DNA of 64,000 bases from Tetradesmus obliquus (taxonomy: Eukaryota; Chlorophyta; Chlorophyceae; Sphaeropleales; Scenedesmaceae): contig CP126194.1 in assembly GCA_030272155.1 (NCBI GenBank), forward strand, positions 2,409,501-2,473,500, written 5' to 3'. Shown here piece after piece: positions 1-64,000 of the stretch. The notes beneath the pieces are model-generated. The model saw nothing but the letters and a program-made list of their open reading frames with translations. It searched no databases and was not told where the DNA came from. Each line of letters begins with the position of its first letter. Position 1 is the stretch's first letter. The translations under genes were made by a program, and so were the position numbers.

Positions 1-40
1 TGCAGCTGCAGCCAGGCGTTGTCACAGAGTACACACTCAC

Positions 41-2296
41 CGATGCACTCCTTGGTAAGCCCCGGCTGCTTGTAGTAGCCTGAGAACAGGCCTGGCCCGC
101 GGATGCACACCTCCCCGGTGGGCGGCTCAGCTGCTGGGTCGTACCCCATCTCTGGCACTGCCTCCAGCCGCACCTCCACGCCTGCGGCAGCAATGCGACA
201 CAACACAGCTCAGTACATTCCAGTACATTTCAGTAATGTAAACGCATTTTCAGGATTGATACCTGCAGGAAGCCACTGCCAGTGGCCCATTTCAGGCGCT
301 GCCTCCAGCCGCACCTCCACGCCTGGTGCAGCAGCCAAAGGCAGGTGATGCTGTGAATCTTATCGTCGGCATTACGTGAACCTGGCTGGGGGGGCTGTCA
401 CTGGCAAGTTGGATGTATGTAGAAGATAACACAACACGTGCAGCCAACACTGGATGGTTGGCGAGGATGTCATAAGCAAATCATTCAATCTCAGCACGAT
501 GCGCATTGGCAGCATCACGCACCTGGCATGGGTGCGCCGACTGTGCCGATGGTATCCCAGCGGAAGGGCTCCGCAATGCTGCTGGCGGCACACGTCTCAG
601 TCAAGCCGTAGCCCTGCAGCACCGGCGCACACATCGCGCAGGACAGGAACTCCTGTGTGGGCTGCGCGAGGGGCGCTGCGCCGCTGAGGATGAGGCGCAC
701 GCGGCCGCCCAGCTTGGCCTTGATGGCGTTGAAAGCGAGGGCGTCTGCCAGGGGTGAGGCCTGCATGCATCAAGCGCGGCACAGTGTGAGGATGCTAAGG
801 TTTGATTTGTGTGTGCCAGCAGTCGCCCAGCTTGGCCTTGATGGCGTTGAAGGCGAGGGCGTCAGCCAGCAGCGAGGCCTGCATGTGTTAGACAGGGAAC
901 AGCAGCAATGGCACAGCACAAAGTGTGGGTGTGTCTGGGTGTGGTGTGTGCCAGGAGGCTGCCCAGCTTGGTCTTGATGGCGTTGAATGCCAGCGCATCA
1001 GCCAGCGGGGAAGCCTGGTTGCAAGCATGCGAAGCACAAGATCAAACGACTTGATTGTCAGCGCTGTCGCCTGGCGACACATGGCAGCCAGCGCCAAACA
1101 CTGCGTGCTTTGCACTGCAAGCCGGCTGCAGGTGGTGCTGCTGAGCTGATGCTGCCAAGGTGCCGGCAATGCTTCGTGTCTTCATTGTCTGCAGCTCACC
1201 TTGTCGTGCTTGATGCCGCGCTTCATGAAGTACGACTTGCGCCACAGGCACAGGTGGAACACCAGCCACTTGAGCACATTGGCGCGCAGCTGCGAGCAGG
1301 GCAGAGACAGCACAACAGGCATCGCTGTCAGTGCTCAGCCTGTGCAGCATACGCACGCCCTAGGCCATGCCCTTTTAGGCACACAGTGCTCGTGCTCCAG
1401 CAACAGCTTGCAGGTGACCACTGCTTGGCTGCAATTTCTCCACTGCCCCTTGCAGCACCTGCTGTTCGCCCTCCTGCTGCTGCTGCTGTTGCCGCCGCGC
1501 ACCTGCTCGTTGATGCCCAAGCAGGTGCATTCGGACAAGCTGCGGGCCAAACACGCCGCCTGTGAGCCTCTCTATTGGTGTTTCACCAATAGAAACCCAC
1601 TGCCGGTTAAACATGCACCCAGCCAAACACGCTGCCGGTCAAGGATGCTGCCGGTCCCTAAAAAGCATATTTACTGTTACTCCTCCAACCCCTCAACAAA
1701 ATTCCATATACTCCCAAACTTCCAACTGCCAATACATACATTGTTCCCAAGTTCTAATCCCAAAACACGCCCCCCACCCACCTGCTCGTTGATGCCGGCG
1801 TAGATGCGGTCAAACACGCGCGGCACTCCGCAGAAGAGGCTGGGGCGCAGCGCCTTGATGTCGTCCAGCACCTTGGGGATCTCGCCCTGCCAGTAGCCAA
1901 TGCTGCCGCCCTTGTGCAGCATGAACTCCTCCGCCAGCCTGCAGGGAGGCTAACAGCAAACATGCATGCAGGGTCAGCGGCATTCTCGCAGGAAACGATG
2001 TAAGGGTGGTGTATAGGATCTGGATGATGCAGTATGAACTCCTCCGCCAGCCTGCAGGATGGCAGCAGCATGCATGCAGGATCAGCAGCATGCTTGCAGG
2101 AAGGACACGACGCTGCCGCCCTTGTGCAGCATGAACTCCTCCGCCAGCCTGCAGGGGGCGGGTTGGCATGTGTCAGGCAATGTTGTTTGGCTGGTGACAA
2201 GGATGGTTGAGCATACGGGGCCGTGTTTTACAGCAGTCCATAGCACTCACAATCTGCTGATCTTGCACACTGCTGTGCAAACATTAGCAGGCGCAC

Positions 2297-2337
<41 letters not shown>

Positions 2338-4217
2338 AGATGCGCACCTGTCGAACACGTGTGCCAGGGGCAGGAAGCTGAGGTAGGAGTCCTCGGGCCC
2401 CAGGCTCTCATTGAAGGAGGCCAGGTACTGGTTGCAGCCAGCAATGGTGGCCACCAGCGCAGCGTGCGTGATCATCACACCCTTGGGCGTGCCTGCAAAA
2501 GAGTTAGCGACAAGCATGAAAGTGGAGAACCGCCACCCGCTCGTTGCACATCATCAAGCTCAATGCAGCTGAGCTGCCAATCTTCAGCCCTGCTGCTGCT
2601 ATCACTTGTTGGCTGCTCCCCCGCCACTGGTGCCAACACAGAGCTGCTGCAGGCTCCCCCGGCTTGCCCGCCCCGTCCCAGCATTTGACCACGTATTGAC
2701 ACAAAATCCAGAACAGTATGAGATGCAGCCGCACCTGTGGTGCCGCTGGTGTACATGATGGTGGAGAGGTCGCTGGGCTTGGGCGGCTCAGGCGCTGCCA
2801 GCTTGGAGCGGCCCAGCTGCTGCAGCTCAGCAAAGCTCAGCAGCTTGTTTTCAGTGGCCCTGGCAGCCTGCATCCGCAAACATAGCCGGCAGCAGCAGCA
2901 GGGGACAGGGTGGGGTTGCAGTGCACAAACGGCACAGCCAACAGACAGCTCGTGTACAGGTTGGAACTGCCTGTACTGCTGCTGATGCTGCAAGCACCCC
3001 ACCATCAGCGCTGCAGCTTTATAGCGTTGAATGTGCCTTCTTCGCAGCTGCAGCTGGATTATATCACCGCCCTCTGGTTGCCGCCACCGCTGCTGCGCTG
3101 CTGTCCCGCTGCTGCCACAGCCTGATCTGCAAGCGCTGCCGCCGCTGCCGCCGCCGCCGCCGCTGTTGCTGCTCACCAACAATTCCTCCAAGCGCGGGCC
3201 CGCTCTGCTCACCCTGATGTCTGCTGCTGCCGCCGCTGCTGCCGCTGCTGCTGCTTCACAACAAAACAACTCCTCTGATCATGCTCACCCTGATGTCTGC
3301 TGGCGCTGCCTCTCCCCAGTAGGCCACGCCTGCCAGCTTGCCCACTGCCTTCAGCGCTGCTGCCATGCGGCCGAGGCGCTTGCCCGCCACCACCACCATG
3401 CGCGCCTCGCTGTGCTCGATGATGTACTCGATGGCATCAGCTCCCAGCGTCTCATACAGCGGCACGCACACGTAGCTCATGCGGTTGCAGGCCTGCAGGA
3501 AAGTGTGCAGGAAGGTTTGCAGGAATCACGCGTCAGCACTGTCTTGCTGTGCTTGATGATGTACTTGATGGCACCCTGGCCCAGCATCCCGCACAGCGGC
3601 ACACACACATAGCTCATGCGGTTGCAGGCCTGCAGGTGACAGCTCTGCCTGCCGCATGTCAGAGCATGTCTGAAGGCAACCGAGTCGGGTGCCAGTGCCA
3701 GGCAGTACAGCATTGCTGTCAGCAGTGTTAGTTGCTGGAACACAAGATATTATGGCCACACACCTGCATGGCTAGCATCCACTCAGGGCAGTTGGATCCT
3801 AGGATGCATATCTTGTCGCCCCGCTTGAGTCCCAGAGACTTGAATGCTGATGCAATCGAGGCAGTCTGCTCCTGCGCCTCTGCATATGTGATGAACTTGT
3901 AGGGCTGCGCCTCTCCATCCACCACGGGCCTGTGGCCCAGGCACAAACTGTTGGGCCATTTCTCGCAGCTGTTCCTGTTGGCAGCAACAACAAGGGCATC
4001 ACCATGAGCACCGATGCCATGCCAAACCAAACTGTGTCCCAGGGGTATGCGGTTGCTTCACGCACTTGAAATTGTCGTAAAGCGTGCTCACGCCCGGAAG
4101 AGATGGGCTGCCGTCTGCAGAAAGAGCGTTCGTCCACACCGGGCTGGCTGCAGGGCGGTGGCGAGAGGCCTTTCTTTCAGGCGCAACCTCGAAGAGCATG
4201 GGATAGCGAGGAGCCAT
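41..4217 (-). CDS. LACS: Long-chain acyl-CoA synthetase (AMP-forming), 3' part outside window
   Basis: Activates free fatty acids to acyl-CoA with ATP through an acyl-adenylate. Nine exons join in frame on the minus strand: 4217-4066, 3974-3764, 3492-3289, 2867-2735, 2492-2348, 1938-1782, 1289-1200, 760-523 and 181-41, giving about 490 residues. The next exon starts off the left edge; its intron begins at 40 with GTGAGT. The P-loop [14 protein letters not shown] is split between exons 4 and 5 (about residues 226-239). [10 protein letters not shown] follows, then YGLTET at about 415-420 in exon 8 and [16 protein letters not shown] in exon 9. These are the signature motifs of the eukaryotic LACS branch of the ANL superfamily. 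The start at 4217 ([16 protein letters not shown]) fits the family N-terminus; there is no obvious targeting peptide, so ER or peroxisome cannot be decided. Introns contain several partial copies of exons 3, 6, 8 and 9. Confidence 0.93.
282..326 (-). repeat. Intronic copy of the 5' edge of LACS exon 9
   Basis: On the minus strand this stretch repeats the acceptor and first codons of exon 9 (GCGTGGAGGTGCGGCTGGAG, then a diverging copy of the next codons). It lies upstream of the real exon at 181-41 and has no usable continuation. Confidence 0.75.
827..1016 (-). repeat. Two intronic copies of the 5' edge of LACS exon 8
   Basis: Copies at about 827-882 and 958-1016 repeat the start of exon 8. 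They encode versions of [18 protein letters not shown] preceded by a splice-acceptor-like AG. Together with the true exon beginning at 760, this makes three spaced copies roughly 120-130 bases apart. Only the last continues into the full exon. Confidence 0.85.
2032..2152 (-). repeat. Two intronic copies of the 5' edge of LACS exon 6
   Basis: The acceptor plus GCTGGCGGAGGAGTTCAT (residues LAEEFM) recurs at about 2032-2056 and 2110-2152, upstream of the real exon start at 1938. A copy of the opposite, 3' edge of the same exon (ATCAACGAGCAG followed by GTG) sits downstream at 1498-1522. Confidence 0.85.
2300..2335 (+). repeat. (CAG)12 array in LACS intron 5
   Basis: An uninterrupted trinucleotide array, read as CTG on the LACS sense strand. 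It lies about 12 bases downstream of the exon 5 donor. Confidence 0.95.
3553..3634 (-). repeat. Intronic copy of the 5' edge of LACS exon 3
   Basis: It repeats the exon 3 acceptor and encodes [18 protein letters not shown], a diverged version of [18 protein letters not shown] in the true exon at 3492-3289. A short copy of the 3' edge of exon 3 with its donor is at 3205-3222. Confidence 0.85.
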
Positions 4218-5489: not shown

Positions 5490-7279
5490 ATGCAGGTCGC
5501 AGCTCGCGTTCAGTGCAAGGCCCCAGTGGTCGCCCGCCGCGTGCAGCGCGTGGCTATTCGCCCTGTGGCAGCCATGAGCCAGCAGCAGAAGGTGGCTGGT
5601 GCTGCCCTGGCCTCCGTGGCTCTGGCCGGTGCCTTCGCAGCTGCCCCCGTGAGTGCACCTCCGATCTTGCGTTTTGAAGGAGCCCATTGCAGCGAGCAGG
5701 AGCAGTGGCAGCGCAGGCTATTCAGTACAGCGTGATCGCGCTTGCAGGGAGCGTGCAGCTGCAGACGTCGCTCACCAGACCACTTCCCAGACACTGACAG
5801 TGCAGCAGCAGTTGGCAGCATGCAGCCCTGCAGCAGCGCATCCCAACGTGATCTATTACGATATTGACGTTCAATTGAAGCCTGGTGGCATCTGCAGCTC
5901 AGCAGCAGCTGCTGCAGCAGTCTACTGCTTTGGCTACCATGCACGGGCAAGCTGGGCAGTGGCGCCATCCCCCAGCAGGATCAGCAGCAACGTGCCATCC
6001 CAGCAACAGCACCCTCTGGATCAGCACCTCTTCATAGCAGCAAGTCACTGGACGCAGGGTCATTACAGCAGTCAACTGACAATCCGTCTGGGTGTGCTAT
6101 CGCCCCTGCCTGCTGCTGTTGCTGCAGGCTGAGGCCGCTAACGTGGTCAACACCGTGGCCAGCGCTGCTGAGGGCTACCCCTTCGTGCCCCCTTCATGGG
6201 CACCCGCCGTGCTGATTCCCTTCGTGGCCTGGTTCATCCCAGGCTTCGTGATGGCCTCGATGTTCGTGTACATTGTGAGTGTGGACGCTTGGCTTGGGAT
6301 GTTGCATCACAGCAGCAGATGTAGCAGCAGATTGGTAGGGTACAGCACTGTGGCCAGCATTCCAGGCTTTGTGATGGCCTTGCTGTTTGTTTACGTTTTG
6401 AGTAGCCGGCTGTGGAAGGCCAGCAGGGTTTTTGTACCAGCGATCATCAGGGTAGAGTAGGGTGGTGTCTCAGGGGCATCTCAGGCTTTGTGGAGGCCTT
6501 GCTGTCTGGGAGTGGGCGCGCTGCTTGATTAGACTTTGCTGGAGGGTGTGTCCGACCTGCAAACTTGCAGTGTACAGGGATGCTGCTGCTACCACTGCAT
6601 GCTGGCGACAGGCGCATGGCTCCGCTGCTCATCATCTGCGGCAGTTGCCGTTGCTGCGGGCTGATGAGTAGGGGGCTTTGCCTCTATCACCGCATGCAGC
6701 AGCAGCAGCGTTTGTGAACGTCGCAAGGGGGCAGTCGTGTGTGTCGGCATGTGTGTTGGTGTACAGATCAGTAAAGCAGATCAGCAGTATGGCCGTGCCG
6801 GTGTGGCTCGCATGCAGCAGCAGGCTGTGTTGTGTTGGCTGCACATTGCAGCAGCAGATCAGTAGTACAGCTGTGTGCCGTGGCCAGCAGGAAGCAGCAG
6901 CAGCACTGCAGGACATGTAGTTGACATTGCTGGGAGGGAGGTTTTGATGTGTACGGTGGCAGTAGCAACATGCCAACACTCATGACTGGCTTGCGGTTGA
7001 AGCTGCTGTACTTAGATAAGATACAAGTCTTGCGCACGATGACCCAAAAAGCACTGGGTAGCTCGGCCGCAGTCTTGTCTTTCAGTTGTGTTCCTATTCC
7101 CAGCAGCAGATTTGCGTGGATGTTGCGCATGCCCTGCGCACCTGCTGCCGCAAGCAACCTTTTGTGGGCATCGAGTAGTGTGGTTCGCGTGCTTCGCTCA
7201 CATACACCTTTGCTCCTGCTGCTGCTGCTGCTGCTGCTGCTTTGGCCACCTGCAGGAGAAGGAGGCCCCAGAGAAGTGA
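5490..7279 (+). CDS. PSAI: Photosystem I reaction centre subunit VIII precursor (PsaI)
   Basis: Small single-pass subunit of photosystem I at the PsaL/PsaH edge of the thylakoid complex. Three exons, 5490-5648, 6128-6274 and 7256-7279, join in phase 0 to give 109 residues. Residues 1 to about 57 look like a plastid transit peptide followed by an alanine-rich hydrophobic stretch ending in APAEA, suggesting processing before ANVV. The mature part carries one membrane helix at about 77-102 and ends in FVMASMFVYIEKEAPEK, which matches the conserved PsaI C-terminal pattern (MASLFxYIEKE). Nuclear location with a targeting peptide is known for PsaI in Chlamydomonas. The last exon encodes only seven residues plus the TGA stop. 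Intron 2 (6275-7255) contains two decayed copies of the exon 2 end. Confidence 0.88.
6353..6505 (+). repeat. Intronic copies of the 3' edge of PSAI exon 2
   Basis: Positions 6353-6400 encode SIPGFVMALLFVYV, a near copy of IPGFVMASMFVYI at the end of exon 2. A shorter, more decayed copy lies at 6474-6505. Both are downstream of the exon they resemble. Confidence 0.8.
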
Positions 7280-12873: not shown

Positions 12874-15800
12874 TGTCATTTACACCTGCAGCGCCTTTGC
12901 CATGACCAGTGCGACCAGTGCCTACATAGGAGCTCAATGCACCAGGTTCATTGCACTTGAAGGCAATGCGTAACCATAGAGGAGGTTGCGCTGCCGCGCT
13001 ACGCTGGTGCGTCCTTAACATTGTCCACACGCCACACGGACTCAAAACCGCAACATGTTCGATGTGAGCATGATAAAGGCTGGCACACGCATGCAGAAAG
13101 GGGGTGGAGGAGAGGAGGGAGGGAATGAGAGGCGTGCTTGCGCCACGAAGTTACATGCAGCCACCAGCACCACAGCAAACCGGCCCCCTCACCCTCCAAG
13201 AAGCACTCCAGCATGCCGTACAGCCTGCTCTGGTCATTGCACATGTGGTGACACACCCACAACCAGCAAAAACACCAAGAAACCCACCCCACCCCACTCC
13301 ACCTTCTAGGATGCGCTCCAGCTTGCCATACAGCCTGCTCCACAGGTAGACCCTGTGCTCCTGCTTGCCAGCAATGCCGCCAGCCACGTGCTCACCCTCC
13401 CCACTCAGCGCCACATCAACCACAGCAGTCACAGCCGTACCTTCTTCCAATACACACTCCCTGCCGTACAGCCTGCTCTGTTACACACGAATGCTGCGAA
13501 CCAAACAAGCACCAAATTTTGAAGCAGACAACCGCAAGCAACCAGCAATCCGCACCCCTCACCTTCCAGGATGCGCTCCAGCGTGCCGTACAGCCTGCTC
13601 TGGTCATTGCCAACGTGCTGACCGACCCACAAACCAGCACAAACAAGTCAAGAAAAACCCGGCCCCCACCTTCTAGGATGCGCTCCAGCTTGCCATACAG
13701 CCTGCTCCACAGGTAGACCCTGTGCTCCTGCTTGCCAGCAATGCCGCCAGCCACGTGCTCGCCCTCCCCACTGAGCGCCACGGCGCGCCACTGGTTCTTC
13801 TCCACGGCGTTGGTGAAGCTGGCGGTGCAGGGCGCCAGCATGCAAGCCTCGGGCGGGTGCAGCAGCGAGCCCACCCGGCCGGCCTGTGTCAATGACAGAG
13901 ATAGGCGCATGTGCGTCATAAGCAGAAGCACAGGCAGCAGCAGGAACAGTGGTGAGGGTTGGTTGCTGACGCTCAGCAAAGATGGGGACTCGCAGCACAG
14001 CACTTCCTGTGAGTATCAGCGCTGATGCAGCAAAAAGTACGCCGCAAGCATGGCGGCGCAGGGCACCAGCATGCAGGCCTCGGGGGCTTGCAGCAGCGAG
14101 CCCACCCGACCGGCCTGCATGATGGTACATGCCTGGTTTCATGCGTGCGCGCAAAGCTAGAGCACACGCAAAAAACAGGGCCAGTGGCAGCCTAGTCTCA
14201 GAATATTAGGTGTTGCTTGCAGCACAGCACATCCGGTTTCTAGCGTGCACAGCTAGCTACACCACAGCAGCAGCACTCCACCCACCTCCACACCCTCCAG
14301 TGCCTGCTTCAGCTGCTCTGCGCTGTAGCTGCGTGCATCCGGCTGCCGCGGCCGCAGCTCAAACAGGCGCACCGCCTTGTCGCTGCAGTTGACCAGCAGC
14401 AGGCTGCCCTGCCTGTTGAGGCACATGGACATCACCTTCACGGCTGCCGGCAGCTGCACTCAGCACAGAAGCAGGCAGTACACAGGCAGGCAGTGCACAT
14501 GCAGGCAGCAGACTGGTTTGTGTCAAAGTGTGGCATGCAGGCAGTTGACCAGCAGCAGGCTGCCCTGCCTGTTGAGGCACATGGACATCACCTTCACGGC
14601 TGCCGGCAGCTGCACTCAGCACAGAAGCAGGCAGTACACAGGCAGGCAGTGCACATGCAGGCAGCAGACTGGTTTGTGTCAAAGTGTGGCATGCAGGCAG
14701 TTGACCAGCAGCAGACTGCCCTGCCTGTTGAGGCACATGGACATCAACTTGACGGCTGCCGGCAGCTGCAAGAAGTGTATGTGCCAGGCAGCACAAAACG
14801 GTTAAAGTCACGCGGCGTAGTGTGCATACAGTAGGACAATGCACGCAAGCAAGCGAACGGCAACACAGCAAAGCAGCAGAATTGGCAGCTACCAGCAGAA
14901 CCTGATATTGCCAAGAATGACAGGGCTAAGGTCATGCTGCTGTGAGGCCTGTTGATGTGCTTCGACTCGCTCAGTGCCCAGTATGCGTCATCATCATCAC
15001 TTCCAGAAGCCAGCTGCCGGCTCTGCAACAAAACAACTCCCACCTTGACTACGGTACCTGCTGGCTGGCTGTCACTTGCACTACAGCAGTGCATGGAGCC
15101 GCACTTACATTCAAAAGCCGTTACACTGTTACACCAACTGCCAGCAGAGCCCCACCTTGACCACGTCCAGCACCTGCTGGCCGCCTGTGTCGCACAGCAG
15201 TGCGGAACACACCACTGCACAGGCCCCCGCACCCAGCTGCAAAACGACTCTTTGAACCGTCAGCAGCGGCTCACGCCACTGCACAGGCCCCCAGATTCAA
15301 TGCAACCATCACAACACCTGCCAGCAGCGCCCCACCTTTACCACGTCCAGCACCTGCTGGCTGGCTGTGTCGTACAGCGTGATGGTGCCCCGCAGCTGCC
15401 CCAGCAGCACCTCCCTCCCGCTCTTGCTCAGCAGCGCCACGCCGGCCACGTGGTTGGCCACCATCTCCTGCTGCCCGGGCTTTTCAGCAGACGCTGCGGC
15501 AAGAAATGCAGGGCGGCAGGCGGTTGACGCAAGAAGGGTGAGTATGGGTTAATGGGGGAAGCTTCAGCAAGGCAGCTGCGCTGTCAACACGGCCAAAGTT
15601 TGCGGCCGCAATGACCTGTACCAACCTGCGCAGTGGCGTGCAGAATGACGCATTCATATACAGCAGCAGCAGCAGTGCTACGCCGGCCACATGGTTGGCC
15701 ACCACCTCCTGTTGCCCGGGCTTCTCAGCAGACGCTGCAGTGTGCAGAGGGGGCGGGGGTGAGGGTGGTGAGTAGAATTGTGAGTATCAGATGACAAGGG

Positions 15801-20014: not shown

Positions 20015-22357
20015 CATCCTGCAGTGCTTCCTGGACTATGCAACCGCTTTCAACAGCACCTCAGCACACACCAAGCACCTAGCTTAGCACAATCGCAGCC
20101 AGGCACTGGGCTCTGGCTGTGCATGGTGGTGTGACTATTGATGGCTGCTGTGCCTGCTTGCTGTTCAGTTTCAATCCTGCTTTTTGTGCTGCTGCATTTC
20201 TACCTTGTGCTGATGCAGCTGAAGCCGGCAGTGCCTGAGGACCACCCGCTGTCCCTGCAGTCCACCAGCAAGTGGCACACCTACTTCAAGGTGCGGCGGC
20301 TGCAGCTGCCCTGTGCCTTGCAGCTGGCAGGAATCCTGCATACTGCCTCGCAGAGCTGCGGAGCTTGGTGTTTATGATATGCGAGCTTGCAAGCTCCGCA
20401 GCCGTCGGCTTGCTCATCATCCGTCATTTGCTGGGTTGCTGTTTGAGCCTCATGCCACATTTGTCGCGTGCCAGTCGAATCCTTTTCTACGATGTCGCTG
20501 CATGACTGCCTGCTTGCGTACCTGCCTGCTTGCCTGCTTGCAGGACAACGAGGTCATGGAGCAGATAGACAGGGACGTGATGCGCACACACCCAGACATG
20601 CATTTCTTCTCAGGTGACCCCAGCAGCAGCAGCAGCAGCAGCAGGATGAGGCCGCCGCAGGCACAGCCACGCAGAATGCTGGCAACAGCAACGAAGCAGA
20701 CATCAGCAGCTGCTTGCGCCCTGTCCAGTACCCTGTTGTGGTGACCATGATACATGAGCCCAACTTTGCTTGACATGCACAGTCACGCATCCACCGTAGT
20801 CCTCAGGACTCGGTGGGTGTCTACATTGTTCTTATACATGCGCAGCCCGCCGCTGCCATTACTGCCGTGGCCTCTCCTTGCTTGCGCAGCTGATGCAACA
20901 TGCAGTGGTTCTGTAACCAGCTGCAATGCACTCTCCTCGCACTGCATTCTGCCATATGTGAGCTTCCAGCTCTTATGCGTACCTCAGCTGACACTGTGTC
21001 TGCTGCTGCTGCTGCTGCTGCTGTTTGCCGCAGGCGACTCCGCGGACGCAGAGCAGCACCGCCGCGAGATGAAGCGCTGCCTCTTCATGTACGCAAAGCT
21101 CAACCCCGGCCTGCGCTACATCCAGGGCATGAATGAGCTACTGGCACCCCTCTACTACCTCTTCAAAACAGACCCTGATGCTACTAGTGGGCGTTATGCG
21201 GAGGCAGATGCCTTTTACTGCTTTGTGGAGCTCATCAGCGAGTTTCGGGACCACTTCTGCCAGCAGCTGGACAACAGCAGCAGCGGGATCAAGGCGACGA
21301 TTGGGAAGCTGGTGGCGCTGCTGCAGGTGCACGACGCGCAGCTGGCGGCGCACCTGGCGCAGCAGAAGGTGGGGGCGCTTTGTACGCTGTTGCCATGACC
21401 TGCGGCTCCGGCATAACTACAACAGCCAGGAGCATATAGTATTGAGACGTGGGTTTAGGGAGTCATGGGTGGCGCCTGGCGCATGAAACGCCGCTGCCTT
21501 GCTGCTGCTGCTGCCTTGCTGCTGTTATGCGCCTCAAGGTCAACCCGCAGTTTGCGCTTCTGCTAGATCACGCTGCTGCTGCTAATCCTGCTGCCCCACT
21601 GCTGTCATTTGCTTTTCAGGTGGACCCGCAGTTCTTTGCGTTCCGCTGGATCACTCTGCTGCTCACGCAAGAGTTCTCCTTCCCTGATGCGGTGCGCATC
21701 TGGGACACGCTGCTGGCCGACCCAGGGGGGCGGCTGGACTGCCTGCTGCGCGTGTGCCTGGCGCTGCTGCTGCACGTGCGGCAGCAGCTGCTGGAAGGTG
21801 CGTGCTTTTCAACCATCATCGATGCAAATGGCTGCAGATGCATGTGTATGGTTGGCAGAGAGGGTTGAAACTGGTTTTTGATGCAGTGTTGGGTGTAGCT
21901 GTGATTGAGATCAGTGCTGGGTCGGGAGTGGCGAACTGCCCGGCTGTGTGCTGGGGTTGAGAGTGGGGTGGGCAGGGTGCCTGAGCATGCAGTGGTGTGT
22001 TCTGCATGCGAGCGTGGTGGCCATTGTCATGTTATAACAAATGCAGTGATGCTTGAGCTGCAGCCAGTACTAGATCACGGTGCACAACACAGCCGACATA
22101 CCGCGCAATGTCAACACTGTCTTGAACCAACGTACATGCATGCTTCACAGCTTCGGGTCACCAGGCACATGCATCTCATGTCTCGCTCAACACGCATGAT
22201 CTGTTTCAGAAGAAATGGCTTTGATGTGCCCGCTGTCGTTCCTGCAGGCGACTTTGCGGTCATTGTGAAGACGCTGCAGCGCTACCCCTCGGTGGACGTG
22301 GACGTCATCCTGCGCGCAGCAGCGCGCCTGCCGCCATGCTCCAGCGTGCTGGTGTGA
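18348..22357 (+). CDS. TBC1D13-like Rab GTPase-activating protein
   Basis: Accelerates GTP hydrolysis on Rab-family GTPases in membrane traffic. Eight exons, 18348-18620, 18928-19014, 19424-19699, 20219-20290, 20544-20613, 21034-21368, 21620-21797 and 22248-22357, join in frame to 466 residues, slightly longer than animal TBC1D13 because exon 3 encodes a Gln/Ser-rich insert. The catalytic arginine finger is in QIDRDVMRT (I244, D247, R250) and the glutamine finger in YIQGMNEL (Q290), so both dual-finger residues are intact. FAFRWITLLLTQEF and IWDTLLAD are the usual distal TBC motifs. The N-terminus (SRISRFKQELLASRINLDELRRLAFQGIPD) resembles TBC1D13 specifically. The stop is TGA. An intronic copy of the exon 7 start lies at 21533-21590. 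Confidence 0.92.
21533..21590 (+). repeat. Intronic copy of the 5' edge of TBC exon 7
   Basis: Encodes VNPQFALLLDHAAA after an AG, a diverged copy of VDPQFFAFRWITLLL at the exon start (21620), in the same order and just upstream. Confidence 0.7.
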
Positions 22358-29995: not shown

Positions 29996-32466
29996 CTATT
30001 GCTGCTGCACGCCTGCCGCGGCACCTGCAGCTGCCGACCCGCCAGCGCCAGCCGGCGGCAGCTGCGCTGCTGTTGGCTGCTGTGCTGATGGCGGCCGCAC
30101 CACTGCCAGCAGCCGCGCACACTCCTCCTGGCTGATAGGCACCCGGTAGCTTTCATACATGGAGATCAGCTCCAGTGCCACCGCATAGATCTGCACATAA
30201 GCAGCCACCATACATGCAGCAAAACGAGGCAGCAGTAACCGCATATGGCATACTGGCTCGGCTCTCATACATAGAGATGAGCTCCAAGGCCACAGCGTAG
30301 ATCTGCATAAATGCAGCCATTATACGTGCAGCAAAAAGGCGACAGCCGTAAGCGCGTGAGGCACTTCATTGTTTATACAAACACTATGAGATGGGCACCT
30401 GCTAGCTGCCACACATGGAGAGAAGCTGCAGCGCAGGTGTAAACATGCTATGTGTGCAGCAGAAAGGAGGCAGCAGTAAGCTCATGCATTGAACAACCCA
30501 CGAGTTCACACACGGATATGATTGCATGCCTGAAATTTGCTGCTTGCTGCATTCCTGTTTCACCTCCAAAGCCTATGGCACAGCATAGCAGTTCAGCACA
30601 CCTAAATCAGGTGTGCAACAGCAGCATCCCTCAGCCGCCGCACCTGGTTTGTGTCCACATCCACGCCCTCCAGCCACGCAGTGATGTCCCGGCTGCAAAT
30701 CACAGACGCAAGATACAAGCAGCCCAGCGCCAGCACATGTGGCGCATAGATGATGGGCGCATCTGTGCGGTAAACGTCATTCAGCGCAGCCCATGCGTTT
30801 TGGCCGAGGTCTGCCAGCTGAGCATCAGACTCCAGGATCTTGGTGAGGGACAGGTAGGGGCTGAACACCACGAGGTGCGTGTCAAGCTCCTCCAGGATGA
30901 CCTGCGGCCAGAAACAATCACATAGCTTGAACCAGTGAGGGGACAATAACATCATCTCCATGTTCAGCGGCACAGAGCAAAAGCAGCCAACAGGTGGCAC
31001 ATCAGCAAGTCAAACAGCACCCACAACATTGCCGCTCAACGCAAACCATCTGCAGCTGCAGCATGTAACACAGCAGCAGCAGACCGGCAAGCAGAGAACC
31101 GCCACAGCAACCAACACGCCGCTGCTGCTGCTGTTGCTGCTGCCGCCTCACACACCATATCCATGTCCAGCAAGTCTTTCACCTCGTACTGCCATCCAGG
31201 CCGCTTCATGCTGGCCAGCAGCAGCTCGCGGCAACCGGGCACCAGCAAGCACCACACGGCAATGGCACCCAAAAGCAGCACACCAGCCACCATGCAACGC
31301 AGCAGCAAGCAACCCAGCAGCAACTTGCAACAAGCAGCAGCCAACCTGCAACAGCACTGCAGCACAACAGCTTCTGTTCCACGCACCATCTCCATGTCCA
31401 GCAAGTCTTTCAGCTCGTACTGCCACCCCGGCCGCAGCCGCTTCATGCTGGCCAGCAGCAGCTTGGCCGCCACCACGGACTCCTCCACCTTGCTGGCAAG
31501 GTACAAGCAGCCAGGCGCCACCAGGTGCGGGTCGTGGCGGGAGAAGCTGCTGCCCGCACACAGCCGGCGGAAGTAGACCACAGCCGTGGCAGCCACGCTG
31601 CAGGTGTTGACAGAGATATTGCAGTGTGCGTGTAAGCAAGCAAATGAGGTGGTTGGCGAATGATGCATCCAACCCAGGATCGGTGTGGAGAGCTTAAGGG
31701 CTACTGATCGGCGAGCCTCCTCCTACGCCAGCTAGCGTCTGCTCAACACACAGCCTGCTGCTACATCAGAGACCAGGCCGCAAATGCTTCTGCTGCTGCG
31801 TCTGCTTCGTGTGCGCAGCCTGCTGCTCCTACATCAAGCAGGCCGCCATTGCTGTTACTGCTGCGTGTGCTGCTGCTGCTACCGCCATTGTTGAGGCGTC
31901 TGCCGTGTGTGCTCACCGCTGCCGCAGCTTGATGGAGTTGGCCATGTCATAGATGTCTGCAAGGAAACCAAGCACAGCAGGATGAGCTGTTTTGCCAACA
32001 ACAGCAAGTACAGCTGCCTTGTCAGAGTGCAGGAGTATGACAGCAGCTTCAGTGCTTCCTCCGACCATGGACGTTTAACACGTACGGCTAAACCAATGTG
32101 CTGGCGTCCCACGGCAGCATCAACATTGCTGCGGCTTTGCCCATTTCTCTGTGAAGCTCCAATCACAGCACACAAGCAGAGCAGCTCACACTGCGTGAAG
32201 TACACCTTGAGCTGCTGGATGTGGCTCTCCAGCAGCCCCTTGGCCCTGTCTTCCTGCTGACAGCGCAGCAGGCGCTCCTTGGGCATCAGCCATTTGCTGC
32301 AGGAGAGGCAGCGCAGAACAAATGGCGCCAGGTACTTTTGAGAAAGCCAGCAACCGCCAGGTCAGCGCAGCGCTGCCTCCTGTGTATCTTGCGCCTGGTG
32401 CATGCATGCATGCATGCGGCGTTTGATGGCTTACAGTTGGGTAGATGTCCAGAAGTTTGCAGCCAT
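29996..32466 (-). CDS. CYCC: Cyclin C, Mediator kinase-module cyclin
   Basis: Partner of CDK8 in the Mediator kinase module, acting in the nucleus on RNA polymerase II transcription. Six exons, 32466-32435, 32296-32190, 31956-31917, 31597-31387, 30901-30644 and 30190-29996, join in frame to 280 residues. It opens with MAANFWTSTQL, the conserved cyclin C N-terminus. The cyclin box includes MANSIKLRQRVAATAVVYFRR, DPHLVAPGCLYLASKVEESVV and LLDMEM. The second fold contains LDTHLVVFSPY and HVLALGCLYLAS. Length is close to plant and animal cyclin C plus an Ala/Gly-rich tail. The stop is TAG. Introns repeat the edges of exons 4 and 6. It diverges from the START gene. Confidence 0.94.
30258..30305 (-). 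repeat. Intronic copy of the 5' edge of cyclin C exon 6
   Basis: Encodes IYAVALELISMYES after an acceptor-like AG, matching the true exon start at 30190 with few differences. A more decayed copy is near 30410-30435. A copy of the far end of the exon (GGCAGCTGCGCTGCC region) lies past the stop at about 29906-29941. Confidence 0.8.
31152..31225 (-). repeat. Intronic copy of the 3' edge of cyclin C exon 4
   Basis: Encodes LLLASMKRPGWQYEVKDLLDMDM with a following GTG, a near copy of the end of exon 4 (31597-31387), about 230 bases downstream of it. Confidence 0.85.
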
Positions 32467-42572: not shown

Positions 42573-44274
42573 CCTGAGCCCGTGGACGACCAGCTGATGT
42601 ACCAGCAGGCGCTGCAGCAGCAGGCCGCAATGCACGCAACCAGCACACACCAGCAGGTGGGACCGGCGGCAGCAGCAGCAGCAACCTACGCAGCATCAGC
42701 AGGGCACTGCTTGTACAATGTACTTGTTGTAGCAGGCTGTGGCTGCCGCCAGCACATGCCGTGTGCCACAACAATGTGTGAGGTCTTCTTGCATGTTGTT
42801 ATTTATGTTAAGCATGAACAAGGTGACTGCAAAAATCACTGCTGCTGCTGCTGCTGCTGCTGGCAGGTGCCCACCGGGCGTGTGCTGGCCAAGGCGGAGC
42901 GTGAGAAGCAGCGCGAGGAGGCGCGGCGGCAGCGGGAGATGGAGCGGGCACGCGCTGCACAGGTGGGCACAAACTCACTGAGATGTTCAAGTAACGTTCC
43001 AAACACGTGGTGAACCGTGTGTACAGCGGCTTAGGGCTAACTATTCCTGCCTGCCGCACCCTTGCAGCCAGGCCTATCTGCCACACCTTATGCATAACCA
43101 GCCTGCCACACCCTTCCTGCGGATTTGTGACGGCACACCACATGCCACACCTATCTGCCGCCTGCCGCCTGCCACCCCCTACTTGCATCTGCCTCTTCTT
43201 CCACCCCAACACAGGAGCGCGAGGCCAAGCGCCGTGAGGCTCAGGAGGAGCGTGAGCGCCGCGCCGAAGAGAAGCGCAAAGCAGCAGACGACAGGCGCCG
43301 CGAAAAGGAGTCCGCAAAGGCCCTAGCACAACAGGAGCGGGCCGCAGGCCGCGGCCCCCGCATAGGCCGGCCCCCAATGACTGATGCGGCAGGGGGCAGC
43401 CACCATTATCATAGCCATAATGTGCCTGATGATTGTGAGCTTGAGAGGGAGGCGCTGCTGCTGCGGGCGAGGGCGAGTGCTGCTGCGCAGGCTGCTGCGC
43501 GGGGGCTGGATGCGTCTGCTGTGGAGCCTGTGGTGGGGCCGCCACCTGAGTTCCCGCCACCTTACTTGCAGCTGCAGGTGAGATCTGTCAAGGGTGTGAC
43601 GAGTGAAGTTGCGAAGGGCATGTGTGAATCGTGTTATGCATGCAGGCATAGCGGGATGTGAGTCCTGCAGCTGTGCTGCGCCATGTTGGCTGCTGTGTGA
43701 GATCTGGGTTGTGCTGTAAGGAGTCCACTTTGCGTCTGCTGTGGAGACTGTGGTGGGGCCGCCACCAGAGTTCCCACCGCCCTACTTGCAGCTGCAGGTG
43801 AGGTGGTCTTAAGGGTGCAATGTGTGAAGTCTGGATGGGCATGTGTGAATCGTGTTATGCATGCAGACACAGCGGGATGTGCTTTGCTGCAGCAGGCGTG
43901 CAGCTGTGCCGCACCATGTTGGCTGCTGTGTGAGTGCTGAAATGTGCTGTATTGAGTCGATTGTGTGTCTGCTGTGGATCCTGTGGTGGGGCCTCGCCAG
44001 AGTTCGCGCCGCCCTACTTGCAGCTGCAGGTGGGGCGGCTGGAGGGGTGCCCCAGGTGTAATTGGTGTTGCGCCGGCCAAATCATCTGCTCCCAGCTGGC
44101 GACGCCATCTGCACCCCAAAACATCACCTCCCTGCCATTGCTGTTGCTGCTGCTGCTGCTTCTGTTGCTCATGCGCCACGTTCCCTCAGCCCGCCTTCCC
44201 GCCTGAGCTGGGTGACGATCTCGGCCAAGTGCTCATTGAGGCGTGGGGCTTCACCGCCTGCCTCGTTGACTCGC

Positions 44275-44322: not shown

Positions 44323-47300
44323 GTAGCCCGCCTTTCCCCCAGAGCTGGGTGATGAGCTTGGCCAAGCCCTCATTGAGGCGTGGGGCTTCACCGCCTGCCT
44401 GGCTTGACGATCTTCAAACAATCCTAACACTGCTGTTGCTGCTGCTGCTGCTGCTTTGTTCAATCGCAACTTCTCCTCCCCTCAGCCCGCCTTCCCGCCT
44501 GAGCTGGGTGATGAACTAGGCCAAGCCCTGATCGAAGCGTGGGGCTTCAGCGCCTGCCTTGCTGACCTGCTGGGGGCGCCTCCCTTCAGCATGGAGGCGC
44601 TACTGGGTGGGCTACAGCAGGGCAGCAGCAGCGGGCTGCTGGGGCTGCTGCACGTGCTGCTGCTGCGGCAGGCGCAGGCAGACATGGAGGAGGCACACGC
44701 CACTGGCGTGCTGCAGGTGGGTGGGTGGATGGGTGGTTGGAGCAGACAAGGGTGCCTGTTGTGCTGTGTTGGGGGTTGATGCTGTGGTGGTGAGTGATGC
44801 ATCGGGGCAGTGGTCGACACCTGGCCACAGCGTGCTGCAGGTGGGAGGGTGGATAGGTGGGTGGGGCGGAGCGGTGCTTCTGTGTTGGGCTAATGTTGTG
44901 GCGAGGAGTGGTCAGATTGGGATGGGTGGCTTAGGTAGAAGGAATGTTTTATGATGCTTTGGTGGGGAGTGATAACTTGGGTCGTTGCTCACAAGCGGGT
45001 AGCTGCCAGCAGGCTGGGGGTAGTTTATCAGAGCCGCAACGCGTCAAACCTTACGGATGCGGAACTGCAGCGGTGTGTCGCTTCTGTGGCACCTGCGATC
45101 GCTCCAAGCTCACCATCACACGCCTCTGCTGCCGCCGCCGCTACGGCCGCCGCCGCCACTGCTGCTGAACCCTCGCAGTCGCCGCAGATCCACCTGTGTG
45201 ACCGCACGCTGGTGGCAGCAGCGCAGCGCTTGGAAGAAGCCTGGGCGTGGGGCCTGGACCCTGACCTGTGGCGGGCCCACCTGGGGCCTGCCACCTGGCC
45301 TGAGGTGCTGCGGCAGCACGCACTGGCCTCAGGGGCGGGCGGCAGCAGGTACCCGCTGAAGCAGCAGCCGGCTGCTGCTGAGGTGAGCTGTTGGGGTCTG
45401 GTTGGAGCAGCGTTGTGGGTGGGGGCGGGCATGTGGGCGTCACGGTGTTGGGGAGGGGCTGGGGCGGCAGGAAGTATTACATACTTGAGATCGCTTAACT
45501 GAGCAACTGCCCCTCCTTCTGCTCGCGTCCCACGCCAATCTTTCAACCCACTGTCCACCCGACACCTGTGCAAATCATGTGCAGGGCCCGGACGGCGCAG
45601 CAGCAGCGCCGGCAAAGATGAAGCGCTTCCGCGGCGGCCCCTCTGCCAGCTATGAGGGCGAGGACATACTGCCAGGTGGCACACCAGAGGGCCCTCAGGC
45701 CTGAAATACTACACACTCGAGATAACCAACTGAGCAATTGCTCCTCCTGCTGCTCGCCTCCCGCGCTAATCCTTCCAACCCCTTGACCTACTCGACTGTT
45801 CATTTCATGTACACAGGGCCCGGACGGCGCAGCAGCGGCGCCGGCCAAGAAGAAGCGCTTCCGCGGCGGCCCTGCTGCCGGCTACGAGGGCGAAGACCTA
45901 CTGCCAGGCGGCGCGCCAGACGGCCCGCTGAAGCTGCAGCTGCCGCAGCGCTTTGCTGAAGGCACGTGGATGGCTGCTGCGTGGCGGGTGCTGGCGGGAG
46001 TTGGGCCGGAGGGCATGTACGTCAACGATGTGAGTGTGTTGGCGGCTCCTGGCCATTGGGGTTGCTAAGGTGTGCTCCTCCTTCCATGCACATTATGGCA
46101 GGCTTGAACTTGATGCATGGTGTGCTTTGTCAACTACAAGTATGTCCCTGCCAATCATCTCTTCGGCAGCGCGGTGTCCTTGGGGAGCGGGGCCTTGCGC
46201 AGCCTGGCGGGCAGCATGGCACGCACTGCTGTAGCGCAGCGCTTGACGTTATGCTGTCACACTGTGCCGCTGTCTATGTGCAGCTGGTGCGCGTCATTGC
46301 TGAGCGCGGGCTGCGCAGCCTTGCGGGCAAGCACCCCGAGGCCAGCCTCACAGGGGCGCTCAGCAGGGAGGTGCTCTTCACGCGGCTCAAGCCGGGCACC
46401 TACGCGCTGCAGGTGGGGCGATGCATCAATCCTGTGATGTTATAACATGCTGCAACATTTAACAACATGGTTTGACCTGCTCAAGCCGGGCACATACGCG
46501 CTGCAGGTGGGGCGGGGCTGCCAGCAGTGTTGAAATACAGTCATAACATGTTGTTTTTGCATCTCCCACTAAATTCCAGCCACGCAGGCAGCAACACGAG
46601 CTAGGCACGTTGTCGTGATTAGAAGCTCTGTTCTTGATGAGGCTCAATGCAAGCAGGCTGTTCACACTTACTTTGAGCTGCACTGCTGCCGCCTTGCTGA
46701 CACGCCTGCGCGTATGCTGTGTGTATGTGTCTGCTGTTGCTGTGTCAATCGCTGCTGCAGTCTATTGTTGCGTACCACCAGCGCATGGCAGCTGCGGGCC
46801 AGACACCAGTAGTGGAGCCGCCTGCTGATGTGGCACGGCCTGATGGGGCTGCTGCTGCTGCCATGGACGTTGATGGGCATGATGATGAGGAAGAGGAAGA
46901 AGAGAGGTGAGGCCACAGCTTTGAAAAGTTTGGTGAAACCGCCTGCTGATGTGGCACGGCCTGACGGGGCTGCTGCTGCTGCTGCCATGGATGTTGACGG
47001 GCATGATGAGGAGAACGAGGAAGAAGAAAGGTACGCAGCCAGCTGAAGTGATCAGCTTGCTATGTTACACCCTATCCCTTTGCATAAGGCATTTTCATCA
47101 TGGGCAATCACGCCAGCGCATCACTCACATAGAAACTCCATTACCGTACCCGGCTCTGCCCTGCCCTGCTCATGTCGTCACTGCAGCGATGAGGAGGAAG
47201 CATTTGCAGCAGTCTAACGGTGCACTTCATGGTCCTGTTTGGCTCAAGAGATCAACACACACCCCTGCCATCCCTCCCTTTCTTGCTCTGTTCTGCCCTT

Positions 47301-57588: not shown

Positions 57589-58828
57589 ATGCCGTCGAAT
57601 AGTCGTCCAGAACAGGAGCAGCAGCAGCAGCAGCAGCAGCAGGCAGTGGCTGCAGCGCGTACGCTTCAGGGCCTGCTGCGAGGCGCAAGGATGGTGCACA
57701 TGCTGCAGCATCCACCCCCTGCCGTGCCAACAGAGCAGCAGGAGCAGCTGCTGTCCATCTGCTCCCTGACCCTGGATCAGCTGCATCAGGCGCTGAAAGG
57801 AGTGTGCGGCTCAGCAACAGCAGGCCAGCAGCTGAGCAGCGTCCTGCAGCTCGATGCAGCTCACAATGCAGCAGCGTTGATAGCGTGGGCACTGCAACGG
57901 CCCACGCAGCTGCACTTGGAGGCACTGATAACTGAAAATAGCGTCCATGCAGACACAGTGGCAGGCGTGCTGTTCCTCGTGCACAATGCTTTCTTGGGTC
58001 ACTTGGCGGTACTCCAGAGTTTGGAGGGCAGCGGTGCGGCGCTGGCCTTAGAGGTGACGCAGCAGCTGCACCGGTCAGGTGGGCAGGATCAATCAAGCAG
58101 GATGCTGCATTTCAATTGCATCAGTTGCATGCAAGCAGGCTATTGAAGCATCCAAGAAATGTATATATTTTGTAGTGTGGGTGTTGCTCGATTGCAGGAG
58201 AGCATAACCTCCGTCGGTGTTGGAGTGCCGCTTCCTGGTCTCAGCTGATGGCTTCATGTGTTGTGGCTGATACCACCGTCAGATGGTGCTCGGACCAAAG
58301 AGTAACCCAACTGTTAACCCTTACAACGCTCTGTCTCAATTGCTTTGGCTGGTTTGGGCAACAGCAGGTATCAATTATGTGTTGTCAACTGACCTACCAC
58401 CTACACATCATATGCACTGAACTTTGTGTGTGGCACATCTGCACTTTGCTGCAATGCAGTGCATGCAGGTTGGCTCACCTTTTGCCACGTGCAATGCCTC
58501 AAGCTGGCAGCTTGATGCTTTGCGCTCTCTGTGTAACTGCTGCAATGCATATGTCATATGCACGGATGTGACGTCAGCAGAGAATGCACTTGTCCTCTTT
58601 TCAAACAGTCACTGGTGCTGGCGCTGCTGCTTGCTGTACTATGCCGTGCAGGCCTGCTGGAAAGGTTGCCGGCAACTCTTGGGCAGTGCGCTGAGCAGCT
58701 GCAGCAGCCTGCCGCGCAGCCGGATGCAGTCAAACTGTTTTCTTTGCTGAATGAACTTGTGGCGTGGCTCATGCCGATGTGGCGCATTGCATTAGCAGCA
58801 ACGTTCAGCTCACAAAGCAGCGACTCTG

Positions 58829-58860
<32 letters not shown>

Positions 58861-61586: not shown

Positions 61587-62693
61587 CCACCAGCAGCCAG
61601 CACTGCAAAAGCAGCATCAACGGGTTGTTCTGGTGCAATGGTAGCAAGATCACCATGACCTTGGCCAAGGTCTTGGCCAGATCGTCTGTGGCATAAGGGA
61701 TGTAGGCCGCAGGAGCAGCTGCAGCCATTGCTGAGCAGTTTGATGCCTACATCCCGCAGCATTTGGGGTGGGAGTATGCAAGGTGTTTGGCTGCAAGCTC
61801 GTGGCCCAGACCAGTCGGCGGTTGTGCTTGGACTCCACGGGAGCAGCATCAAACAGCGAGCTGCGCAATAGAGACGCAGTCATGAAGCCTGCCTTGGTGT
61901 TGATGCAGTCACCTAAATATGAAGTATATGGTGCTTGTGTCGGGGGGCGGGGTGATGATATGCAGCGCCAGTGGTGCTGTGCTGTTAAACTGTGTGCTGG
62001 CAGCTGAGGTAATTCACAGCACTCTGAAGCTTCAGAACCCAGGGGTTGCAGCGCCGGTGCCCAGGTACAGCACCGCTACTGTAGTGATGCTGTTGAGTTC
62101 GGCTTCATGTGAAGCATTTTAGTGCGTTGTTGCATCTGGCAGCATGCATAGACCTGTATGTACAGCTGTGCGTGAGTTTCGGTGTGAAGATTCTTGAATG
62201 TCGTGTCACCTGAAGAGCACATCGCCATAGTCACGTCGCCCAAGCTGCGCTCGCTGCCGTGCACCTACCTTGCGAGTTTTTTCAATTTAACCAAGTCGTT
62301 GACTCAGTACGTCGCGATGTCGCAAGATGGCACCGAGTCAGCGTCAGGACTTGCCAACCCCTACCTTCCGATGTGCTGGGCTTCACACCAACATTTCCTA
62401 GCTTCATTTCTGGTGACTGGAGACCTTGTGAGTTCAGTCATTTGACTAGTGACATCGAGGTTACTGTTATATTGCAGGACCGTCAAGCTGTGCGTTCGCA
62501 GCTGCCGAGGCAGTTTACAGGTCCTGTCACGCCTGCCAAGTGCACCTCAGCGGTTGGGCCAAACTAACGAACCGTTAGTACAGTTGAGATCTATTACTAT
62601 AGTAAAAGCGGGTAGCACCTGAACATCCCAACCAACACAGCAACAGCAGCAGGCAAGCGACTTGTCAAACAGAGCTGCGTGGACGCCCAAGGC
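61587..62693. other. Spacer between tandem MYND paralogues
   Basis: No gene called. Short protein-like stretches appear: IAEQFDAYIPQHLGWEYAR at about 61721-61777 on the plus strand, and MKYMVLVSGGG at 61919. The latter resembles the first residues of CTP synthase, but the similarity stops at once. They may be exon relics. Confidence 0.3.
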
Positions 62694-64000
62694 ATGCAAC
62701 CCAACCAAAACCAGCTTCTGCAGCTGCGGATGCAGCTGCTGCAGCGGCAGCAGCAGCAGCAGGCACTGGCCGCAGCACAGGGGCTGCGGGACCTGCTGCG
62801 TGGTCCAAGGCTGTTGCAGCTGCTGCAACAGCCACCTCCTGCCGTACCGACAGCACAGCAGAAGGAGCTGCTGACAGCTTGCTCACTGACTCTGGAGCAG
62901 CTGGATCAGGCGCTGCAAGGGGACCTTGCATCAGCAGCAGCAAGCCAGAAGCAGCTGAGCAGCGTCCTGCAGCTTGATTCGGCTCACAATGCAGCAGCGC
63001 TGATAGTGTGGGGGCTGCAACGGCCAGCGCAGCTGCAGCTAGAAGATGTGCACACAGCTGGGGTCATGGTCGGCACAGTGACAGGTGTCTGGTACTTTGC
63101 TCTTGCTGCTCTGAGAGCGCAAATAGAGTTGCTGGATGGGTTGGAAGACAGCAGCGCGGCGCTGCTGACATTGGACCTCACGCAGCAGCTGGAGCGGTCT
63201 GGTGAGCAGGCTCAACCAAGCAGGATGATCGTGAGATGTTGTCATCAGGATCTGTGTACCATGTTTTGTGGTTGGTTGTTAAGCCATGACCATCCTAGTT
63301 AGCAGCGAAGGCGATTGTGTTCTCTTAAGACAATGTCACGGTGCCCGTGCTGCTGCTGCTTGCTGCTCTGTGCTTTGCAGGCCTGCTGGAAAGGTTGCCA
63401 TCAACTTTGGGGCAATGCACTCAGCAGCGGCAGCAGCAGCAGCGGCGGCAGCGGCGGCAGCAGTGGCAGCAGCCACCAAAGGCGACTTTTGACACCTTGA
63501 TGTTTGACTCCGTGGGTGAACTAGTACACAAGCTGCTGCGCATGTGGGGCCTGGCGTTAGCAGCGTCCACATTGTTACGTTCACCCATGCAGCAGCAGCA
63601 GCAGCGGCAGCGCCAGCAGCAGCTGCAGCCTGAGAGGCAGCAGCATCAGCAGTGCCAACTGTTGTGCGTGTCGCACTGCCGCTGCAGCGCTGCGGACCGG
63701 CACTGTCAACAGCAGGTGGCGCTGCAGGAATTGGCAGCAGTGACATTGCTAATGTGTACAAGTGCATTCACATGTTGCAGACAGCGGCAGGCCAGCTCTT
63801 GCAGTGTTTCAGCACGCTGTGTCATCGCTACCAGCCGCCAGAGCTGTCGGATGAGGTGCTGCTGCTGCTGAGGCGCGCAGTCAGCGACCCAGCTTCGCTA
63901 GAGCTGCAGCTGCAGCAGCTGGCAGCGCAAACCGCGATGCTGCACCTACAGCACACAGCGTACCTGCGGGACCAGCAGCAGCAGCAGCGGCACCCATCAG
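62694..64000 (+). pseudogene. MYND-finger paralogue B, partial and frameshifted
   Basis: Tandem copy of MYND A, cut by the right edge before any finger domain. Exon 1 (62694-63201) is intact and ends in the same phase as in A; shared segments include LSSVLQLDSAHNAAALI and PPPAVPTAQQKELL. Exon 2 starts at 63381 (LLERLPSTLGQCTQQ). It matches A in one frame through VGELVHKLLRMWGLALAAS, but from about 63650 the matching sequence (LQRCGPAL, then GIGSSDIANVYKC and DEVLLLLRRAVSDPASLEL) is in another frame. At least one frameshift lies at about 63590-63700, in or after the CAG tract. The frame of the second half has a TGA at about 63630. Either the copy has decayed or a small intron was missed. Confidence 0.65.

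Follow-up and report, generated by a model that had tools for sequence, protein, structure and literature searches.

The window analysed here, a 64,000-nt stretch of the Tetradesmus obliquus genome (C4:2409501-2473500; assembly of 104.7 Mb in 17 contigs), holds eight gene models, and introns of these genes carry copies of the borders of their neighbouring exons, splice signal included. A first-pass annotation of the window had described this pattern in six genes, which it called LACS, PSAI, RBBP5, TBC, cyclin C and a homeodomain gene. Six of the eight models, of which two were submitted only partially, were compared with Pfam and matched AMP-binding, Ribosomal_S10, WD40, RabGAP-TBC, Cyclin_N and Homeodomain. 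Names such as LACS, RBBP5 or cyclin C are labels, some of them carried over from the first-pass annotation. The model labelled PSAI gave a Pfam match to Ribosomal_S10 only, and the model at 5490-9045 probably fuses two genes, the annotated PSAI and a ribosomal S10-like gene.

Another 15 places on ten contigs, 250 kb in all, were analysed along with the window, which gave 314 kb in 16 blocks, or about 0.3% of the genome. Genes were predicted ab initio, without RNA or annotation, by a hidden Markov gene finder that combines codon and splice models and was self-trained on the 314 kb. It converged on an AG/GTGAG-like donor and a CTGCAG/G acceptor (the slash marks the splice site), and returned 56 genes with 376 exons and 320 introns (medians of 130 nt per exon and 270 nt per intron). 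These models come from a stricter setting, which replaced a first run that had drifted to tiny exons and triplet-repeat acceptors; a milder setting was left unused because it gave more small exons, and long open-reading-frame seeds for training were dropped as too noisy. Each exon edge was then scanned against the adjacent intron at a score threshold of 36. The searches for repeats and copies were run with simple repeats masked; CAG/CTG triplet runs abound throughout the window (e.g., 2300-2335, 42526-42568, and 58828-58886).

The scan revealed at least one copy in the adjacent intron at 78 of 562 edges (13.9%), with 105 copies in total. Eight of the copies, none of them in the window, were assigned to two edges each where neighbouring copies had been read as exons, which leaves 97 distinct copies. 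The window contributed 18 of 137 edges and 23 copies, none double-counted and six of them near the threshold (score 36-43), while the other blocks contributed 60 of 425 edges. Copies were present in 15 of the 16 blocks and in 29 of the 45 predicted genes with at least three exons. Judged by these counts the window is typical of the sample, and the earlier observation was right: each of the six named genes has at least one copy, and the pattern extends to the other sampled places. The claim that introns are filled with such copies was overstated, since a detectable copy was held by 67 of 320 introns, and of the one to four copies reported per edge, three or four occur only outside the window; within it there are at most two. 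The copies found in the window are as follows, with the strand in brackets.

3543..3635 (minus): 5′ edge of exon 3289-3492 (AMP-binding/LACS-like gene), in the upstream intron; scan, and self-BLAST with 85% over 94 nt
2112..2154 (minus): 5′ edge of exon 1782-1938; 37 exon nt identical, acceptor kept
2028..2057 (minus): 5′ edge of exon 1782-1938, second copy; scan
1500..1517 (minus): 3′ edge of exon 1782-1938, short, with donor GT; scan, weak (score 36)
824..884 (minus): 5′ edge of exon 523-760; scan
957..1017 (minus): 5′ edge of exon 523-760, more diverged; scan
286..325 (minus): 5′ edge of exon 41-181; scan and self-BLAST
6358..6403 (plus): 3′ edge of exon 6128-6274 (annotated PSAI); scan
15670..15738 (minus): 5′ edge of exon 15336-15493 (WD40/RBBP5-like gene); scan
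15261..15292 (minus): 5′ edge of exon 15156-15236; scan, weak (score 40)
14541..14615 (minus): 5′ edge of exon 14286-14453, 156-bp unit; no differences over 69 exon nt, intron part identical
14697..14770 (minus): 5′ edge of exon 14286-14453, third copy; scan, upstream flank unalignable
21537..21580 (plus): 5′ edge of exon 21620-21797 (RabGAP-TBC gene, its only copy); scan, score 43
31150..31226 (minus): 3′ edge of exon 31387-31597 (cyclin gene); scan and self-BLAST
30261..30307 (minus): 5′ edge of exon 29996-30190; scan
30390..30434 (minus): 5′ edge of exon 29996-30190, second copy; scan, weak (score 40)
43981..44023 (plus): 3′ edge of predicted exon 43747-43797 (homeodomain gene); scan and self-BLAST
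44184..44269 (plus): 5′ edge of exon 44486-44716; scan
44325..44404 (plus): 5′ edge of exon 44486-44716, acceptor TAG; scan
46176..46213 (plus): 5′ edge of exon 46284-46412; scan, weak (score 37)
46479..46512 (plus): 3′ edge of exon 46284-46412; one difference over 28 exon nt, intron part unalignable
46939..46964 (plus): 3′ part of exon 46761-46906; scan and self-BLAST
47181..47212 (plus): 5′ edge of exon 47308-47536; scan, weak (score 39)

The copy at 43981..44023 in the homeodomain gene belongs to an array at 43511-44038 with three copies, two of which the gene finder took as exons. A larger duplication lies in the WD40 gene at 13158-13781 (shift 371, 87% identity, with a 116-bp core at 98%), and both of its copies were modelled as exons.

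Copies were commoner at exon edges than in any of the controls. Reverse-complemented introns gave a match at 2 of 555 edges, and for exons of at least 200 nt, to which this comparison was limited, the intron on the right side held a copy at 21 of 170 edges against 0 of 145 on the wrong side (Fisher p 2e-6). Segments of the same size gave 38/1200 in intergenic, 46/1200 in intronic and 38/1200 in non-coding DNA, and 82/1200 (6.8%) at random positions with exons included; these draws were counted with repeats and represent 20-23 distinct places per non-coding class and 63 for the random positions. The ratio of junctions to non-coding DNA is thus 3.6-4.4 (13.9% vs. 3.2-3.8%). At distances of up to 4 kb, self-BLAST of the window gave 27 direct pairs and not a single inverted one, and the other blocks gave many direct pairs 80-500 bp apart and six near inverted pairs in total. 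Among 15 pairs inspected, many consisted of an exon edge with its splice signal repeated about 100-250 bp away, often across an unrelated-looking spacer. Introns with copies are longer than those without (median 401 vs. 257), although long introns also offer more room for a match. Intron copies of exon borders are therefore real and present at nearly every sampled place.

An origin in faulty gene models or assembly seems scarcely credible. The models are ab initio, some arrays were modelled as extra exons, eight copies were counted for two edges, and a few arrays are 98-100% identical, all of which would suit such an artefact. However, the same models yielded nothing at the 145 wrong-side edges, eight gene models in all have Pfam or PDB matches, and 56 of 76 testable copies differ from the exon by 5-23% in the exon part, a divergence that mis-assembly does not produce.

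The geometry of the copies was examined in 40 clean pairs out of 120 non-redundant direct self-BLAST pairs, a clean pair being one with exactly one junction in one copy and the other copy at least 90% intronic (48 pairs without a junction, 30 with several and 2 that failed the intron criterion were excluded). Donor copies lay downstream in 24 of 24 cases and acceptor copies upstream in 16 of 16, which is the placement that the first-pass annotation had given for 3′ and 5′ edges and had attributed to tandem duplication with one breakpoint in the exon and the other in the intron. All 40 pairs thus show the adjacent, same-orientation copies of a tandem duplication across an exon-intron boundary. 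The nearest copy lies at a median of 121 bp from the real edge (interquartile range 106-145; 80-180 bp at 63 of 77 junctions), and farther copies cluster near 205-260 and 290-350 bp, i.e., at about two and three units. This spacing of about 120 bp or its multiples suggests small tandem duplications. Local pairs in non-coding DNA have similar lower limits: in one search all 67 were at 100 bp or more, and other settings admitted a few at 60-96 bp. Splicing is thus probably not what sets the unit size.

The intron part was alignable (z>3) in 41 of the 77 copies, out of 105, that entered this test, borderline in 6 and unalignable in 30; there are clear arrays of three to five units, and the aligned arrays repeat the intron parts too, more diverged than the exon parts. 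In the splice-signal profile, built from 78 of 103 copies, identity is about 0.9 in the exon part, stays high across the splice signal and drops to about 0.45 (ungapped) by 8 nt into the intron. Comparison of copy with copy gave 0.92 over the first 10 exon nt and 0.39 at intron positions 11-20 (31 pairs from 17 arrays), and one single copy matched at 54 of 55 exon nt with no match beyond the exon part.

A copying process coupled to splicing or to RNA, in which just the exon edge and its splice signal are copied, would account for the fall of identity within about 8 nt of intron and for the 8 of 20 young copies that lack detectable homology beyond that point. We regard it as very improbable, since the intron part is repeated as well in many arrays (the 41 of 77 above), the copies keep to the duplication side (0/145 on the wrong side and 2/555 in reverse complement), and similar copies follow stop codons. 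A copy of the coding end was found downstream at 7 of 31 gene 3′ ends, against 1 of 31 in the reverse-complement control (p 7e-5 vs. the intergenic control), whereas coding-start copies upstream, at 2 of 32, were not above control. Because coding ends carry copies too, splicing is probably not the cause of the copying. The copying is thus not specific to splice junctions, on which the earlier description had focused. One such case was seen in L012L013 (L012 and L013 joined), where the last 70-odd coding nucleotides and the stop of a glutamate-cysteine-ligase-like gene are copied just downstream of the gene at 91% identity (5402-5474 and 5515-5589).

We then considered whether selection keeps the copies for some function, such as that of alternative or decoy splice sites. 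Their splice sites often look usable, as predicted from sequence: 35 of 40 acceptor copies and 24 of 38 donor copies score above the 5th percentile of real sites. AG is kept in 38 of 40 acceptor copies and GT in just 27 of 38 donor copies, with GC in 4 of the other 11 (Fisher p 0.006); GT loss in donor copies (11/38) is commoner than AG loss in acceptor copies (2/40), as if decoy donors were harmful. The retained acceptor AG with its still strong sites, a codon-position skew in the differences and a copy-bearing junction common to three paralogues speak for function. Against it, 22 of 29 indels in the copies are frameshifting, the donor GT is lost at the rate just given, copies resembling those in introns follow stop codons (7/31), the shift modulo 3 is even (38/35/32 for 1/2/0 among 105 copies), and a complementary splice signal at the copy's far end is no commoner than chance (39/105 vs. 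36.5 expected). Selection for function is accordingly improbable.

The last two results also suggest that the copies are not duplicated exons, and they removed two candidate explanations, frame-preserving spacing and copies acting as mini-exons; whole exons with both splice sites were not found to be copied. A third candidate took the third-position skew (125 of 207 differences) as a sign of translated copies. It was weakened by the changes private to the copies, which fall 30/30/47 by codon position where 37/34/36 would be expected from the same base changes placed at random, and the frameshifts count against it. These private changes comprise 47 silent, 57 amino-acid and 1 stop change, compared with 34, 70 and 3 expected. 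They are thus nearly neutral, with slightly too many synonymous changes, some of which may have arisen in the exon lineage and be shared with a younger copy. In view of the frameshifts and amino-acid changes, most copies seem to be non-working exons. A few arrays modelled as additional exons are possible exceptions to edge-only copying. In a Snu114-like GTPase and a glutamate-cysteine ligase, the one PDB homologue aligned to each has a single copy of segments that the gene finder read 2-6 times. In the Snu114-like gene (L024, 2627-2959) a 137-bp unit is repeated at 100% identity, and each coding part was modelled as an in-frame exon.

A rival explanation, in line with the first-pass proposal, is plain random tandem duplication followed by neutral decay, in which border copies only seem special since one partner is constrained. 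It accounts for the geometry, the direct orientation and the alignable units, and the changes private to the copies are near neutral, as it expects. In order to evaluate it, 118-bp duplications were simulated both at true junctions and in non-coding DNA, the exon being kept under constraint while the copies changed neutrally, and the outcome was scanned as before; the indel rate measured in non-coding pairs was 0.18 per substitution. The simulated junction/non-coding ratio was 0.92, and 0.88, 0.95 and 1.03 under other indel settings, so that near the measured rate a ratio of about 0.9-1.0 is predicted, not about 4. Young copies (at most 5% exon difference) without detectable intron homology made up 8 of 20 observed and only 0/73, 0/64, 3/90 and 1/98 simulated, and among those one unit away only, 5 of 13 observed copies lacked it (p 0.0007 vs. 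3/90). The simulated identity profile was gradual (0.82 in the exon and 0.69 at intron positions 7-10), whereas a cliff from about 0.9 to about 0.45 was observed. Heavier indels were tried as a rescue of the neutral model; they matched the unalignable share of the older copies only and left the young ones unmatched. Neutral duplication and decay is thus not sufficient for the junction excess and for the young exon patches beside unalignable intron, which implies that something favours or keeps the exon-derived patch, and as a full account we consider it unlikely. The earlier proposal of tandem duplication with exon and intron breakpoints consequently stands in its geometry (40/40), its spacing of about 121 bp and its alignable intron parts, and falls short when set against simulated decay.

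With little more than even confidence, we propose recurrent tandem duplication in which the constrained exon also renews the patch derived from it. Short tandem duplications, mostly of 80-180 bp with a median of about 120, would arise continually across the genome, some of them running from a coding exon into the flanking intron or past the stop codon. The result would be one full exon beside the rest of the gene, with the outer border copies stranded in non-coding DNA. These outer copies would accumulate frameshifts and amino-acid changes and some would lose their donor sites, while selection would hold the exon copy constant. The exon-derived patch might then be renewed from the exon by homology-dependent exchange, either slippage or short gene conversion among direct repeats spaced at about 120 bp, and the intron part of the unit would drift out of register. 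Renewal is suggested by the larger number of exon patches than simulated neutral decay leaves, and by the young patches that often lack the intron part.

Several points weigh against this proposal. While the copies, their geometry and unit size, their spread over the sampled contigs and the failure of the simulated neutral model are direct results, renewal by exchange is drawn from indirect signs, namely young exon patches with intron flanks that are not young. The excess over random positions with exons included is just twofold (78/562 vs. 82/1200, ratio 2.0), and a higher duplication rate in genes could be the source of the excess. The heaviest indel setting does fit the older copies (unalignable in 11/44 and 71/204 simulated and in 12/28 and 9/28 observed). 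Furthermore, the private changes are mildly rich in synonymous ones (47 vs. 33.7 expected), and the exon-copy difference rates of 0.063/0.052/0.175 by codon position (105 copies) show a third-position skew beyond that of a neutral copy of a constrained exon; it is larger than any of the readings explains cleanly, and renewal alone offers no explanation for it. Finally, nothing explains the unit of about 120 bp.

A stronger form of duplication with renewal, which we offer tentatively as a possibility, is that coding borders continually seed and refresh their own copies. The exon, held by purifying selection, would serve as a fixed template whose edge is re-imposed by exchange over about 120 bp, so that arrays would persist as long as paralogues do and introns would steadily lengthen. 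A post hoc and partial comparison of LACS-like genes bears on this. Two diverged paralogues, one on C6 and one elsewhere on C4, each carry at least two copies of their own edge at the junction that matches window position 1938, and the window acceptor at 1938 has two copies as well. The donor next to that acceptor has the weak window copy listed above (score 36) and one copy in L002, and in L003 copies of the same donor are among pieces modelled as small exons; for the acceptor at window position 760, L002 has no copy and the L003 model no matching junction. The shared copies may reflect either a place prone to duplication or old arrays kept in step with the exon. Paralogue searches with exons of what we take to be M11-like and carotenoid-oxygenase-like genes returned their own gene only at the thresholds used, and a ClpR-like query returned its own region only; one further query also matched other places.

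Other repeats were noted in the remaining blocks. In L008L009, a perfect 71-bp direct repeat at 16096-16372 (206 bp apart) surrounds an unrelated 135-bp segment; it does not resemble an exon edge and may be a small mobile element. L010L011 contains a 191-bp tandem array of about six units at 1-1135 and dense diverged direct repeats at 10953-14469 that partly adjoin predicted exons.

Border duplication is common enough here for statistics, both by edges and by genes, and it bears on the open questions of why introns grow and where new splice sites originate. Ready-made competing splice sites beside the real ones provide a natural test of spliceosome choice, and the exon patch and the intron part form a paired clock that simulated neutral duplication does not fit. 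For annotation there is a warning, as the gene finder took several copies as extra exons. The mechanism first suggested for the window is partly supported, right in outline and insufficient in detail, and a quantitative puzzle remains.

Among known systems, tandem exon duplication and mutually exclusive exons also involve local copies of coding sequence. Unlike these, it is mostly one exon edge that is copied here, with the far-end splice signal at chance. The AGGT model of intron gain does not fit either: what is copied is the native junction along with the signal on its intron side. Introners, the transposon-like intron creators treated in passages of PMC9860276, share with the present copies a mass effect on the introns of a genome. 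In contrast to them, each copy here matches its own exon; only 3 of 105 copies matched elsewhere in the 314 kb (outside 3 kb), all of them short, and no introner-type family common to many loci was found within the 314 kb.

Fill-in at staggered DNA breaks can produce small tandem duplications, according to passages of PMC8355091, whose introduction cites previous studies of natural insertions in humans and in plants. This fill-in is a candidate mutational source of the short direct duplications here, although those passages draw no link to exon borders or to the persistence of one part of a unit. In Drosophila, novel introns are described, in passages of PMC2891723, as arising from duplicated coding sequence with a proto-splice site. 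Local tandem duplication alters gene structure in both cases, but in Drosophila exonic segments create new introns, whereas here existing junctions are copied into existing introns.

A genome-wide habit of border copies was not announced in the titles or abstract openings of the papers listed, a coverage that left most subscription journals outside. Single cases of border duplication are already known. One of them is the potato RdRp gene, for which passages of PMC4974935 describe one tandem duplication, in direct orientation, that reaches from the last part of an intron into the beginning of the exon that follows. As in the present copies, the splice signals travel with the copy, and the potato gene also has a second, 83-bp intronic duplication. 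That case, as far as the passages describe it, concerns one gene and one event, compared with 78 of 562 edges here; the exon part of its upstream copy mostly stays exonic and a new intron arises, while the copies in T. obliquus seem to be intronic, and their exon patches, unlike those of potato, appear to outlast their intron parts.

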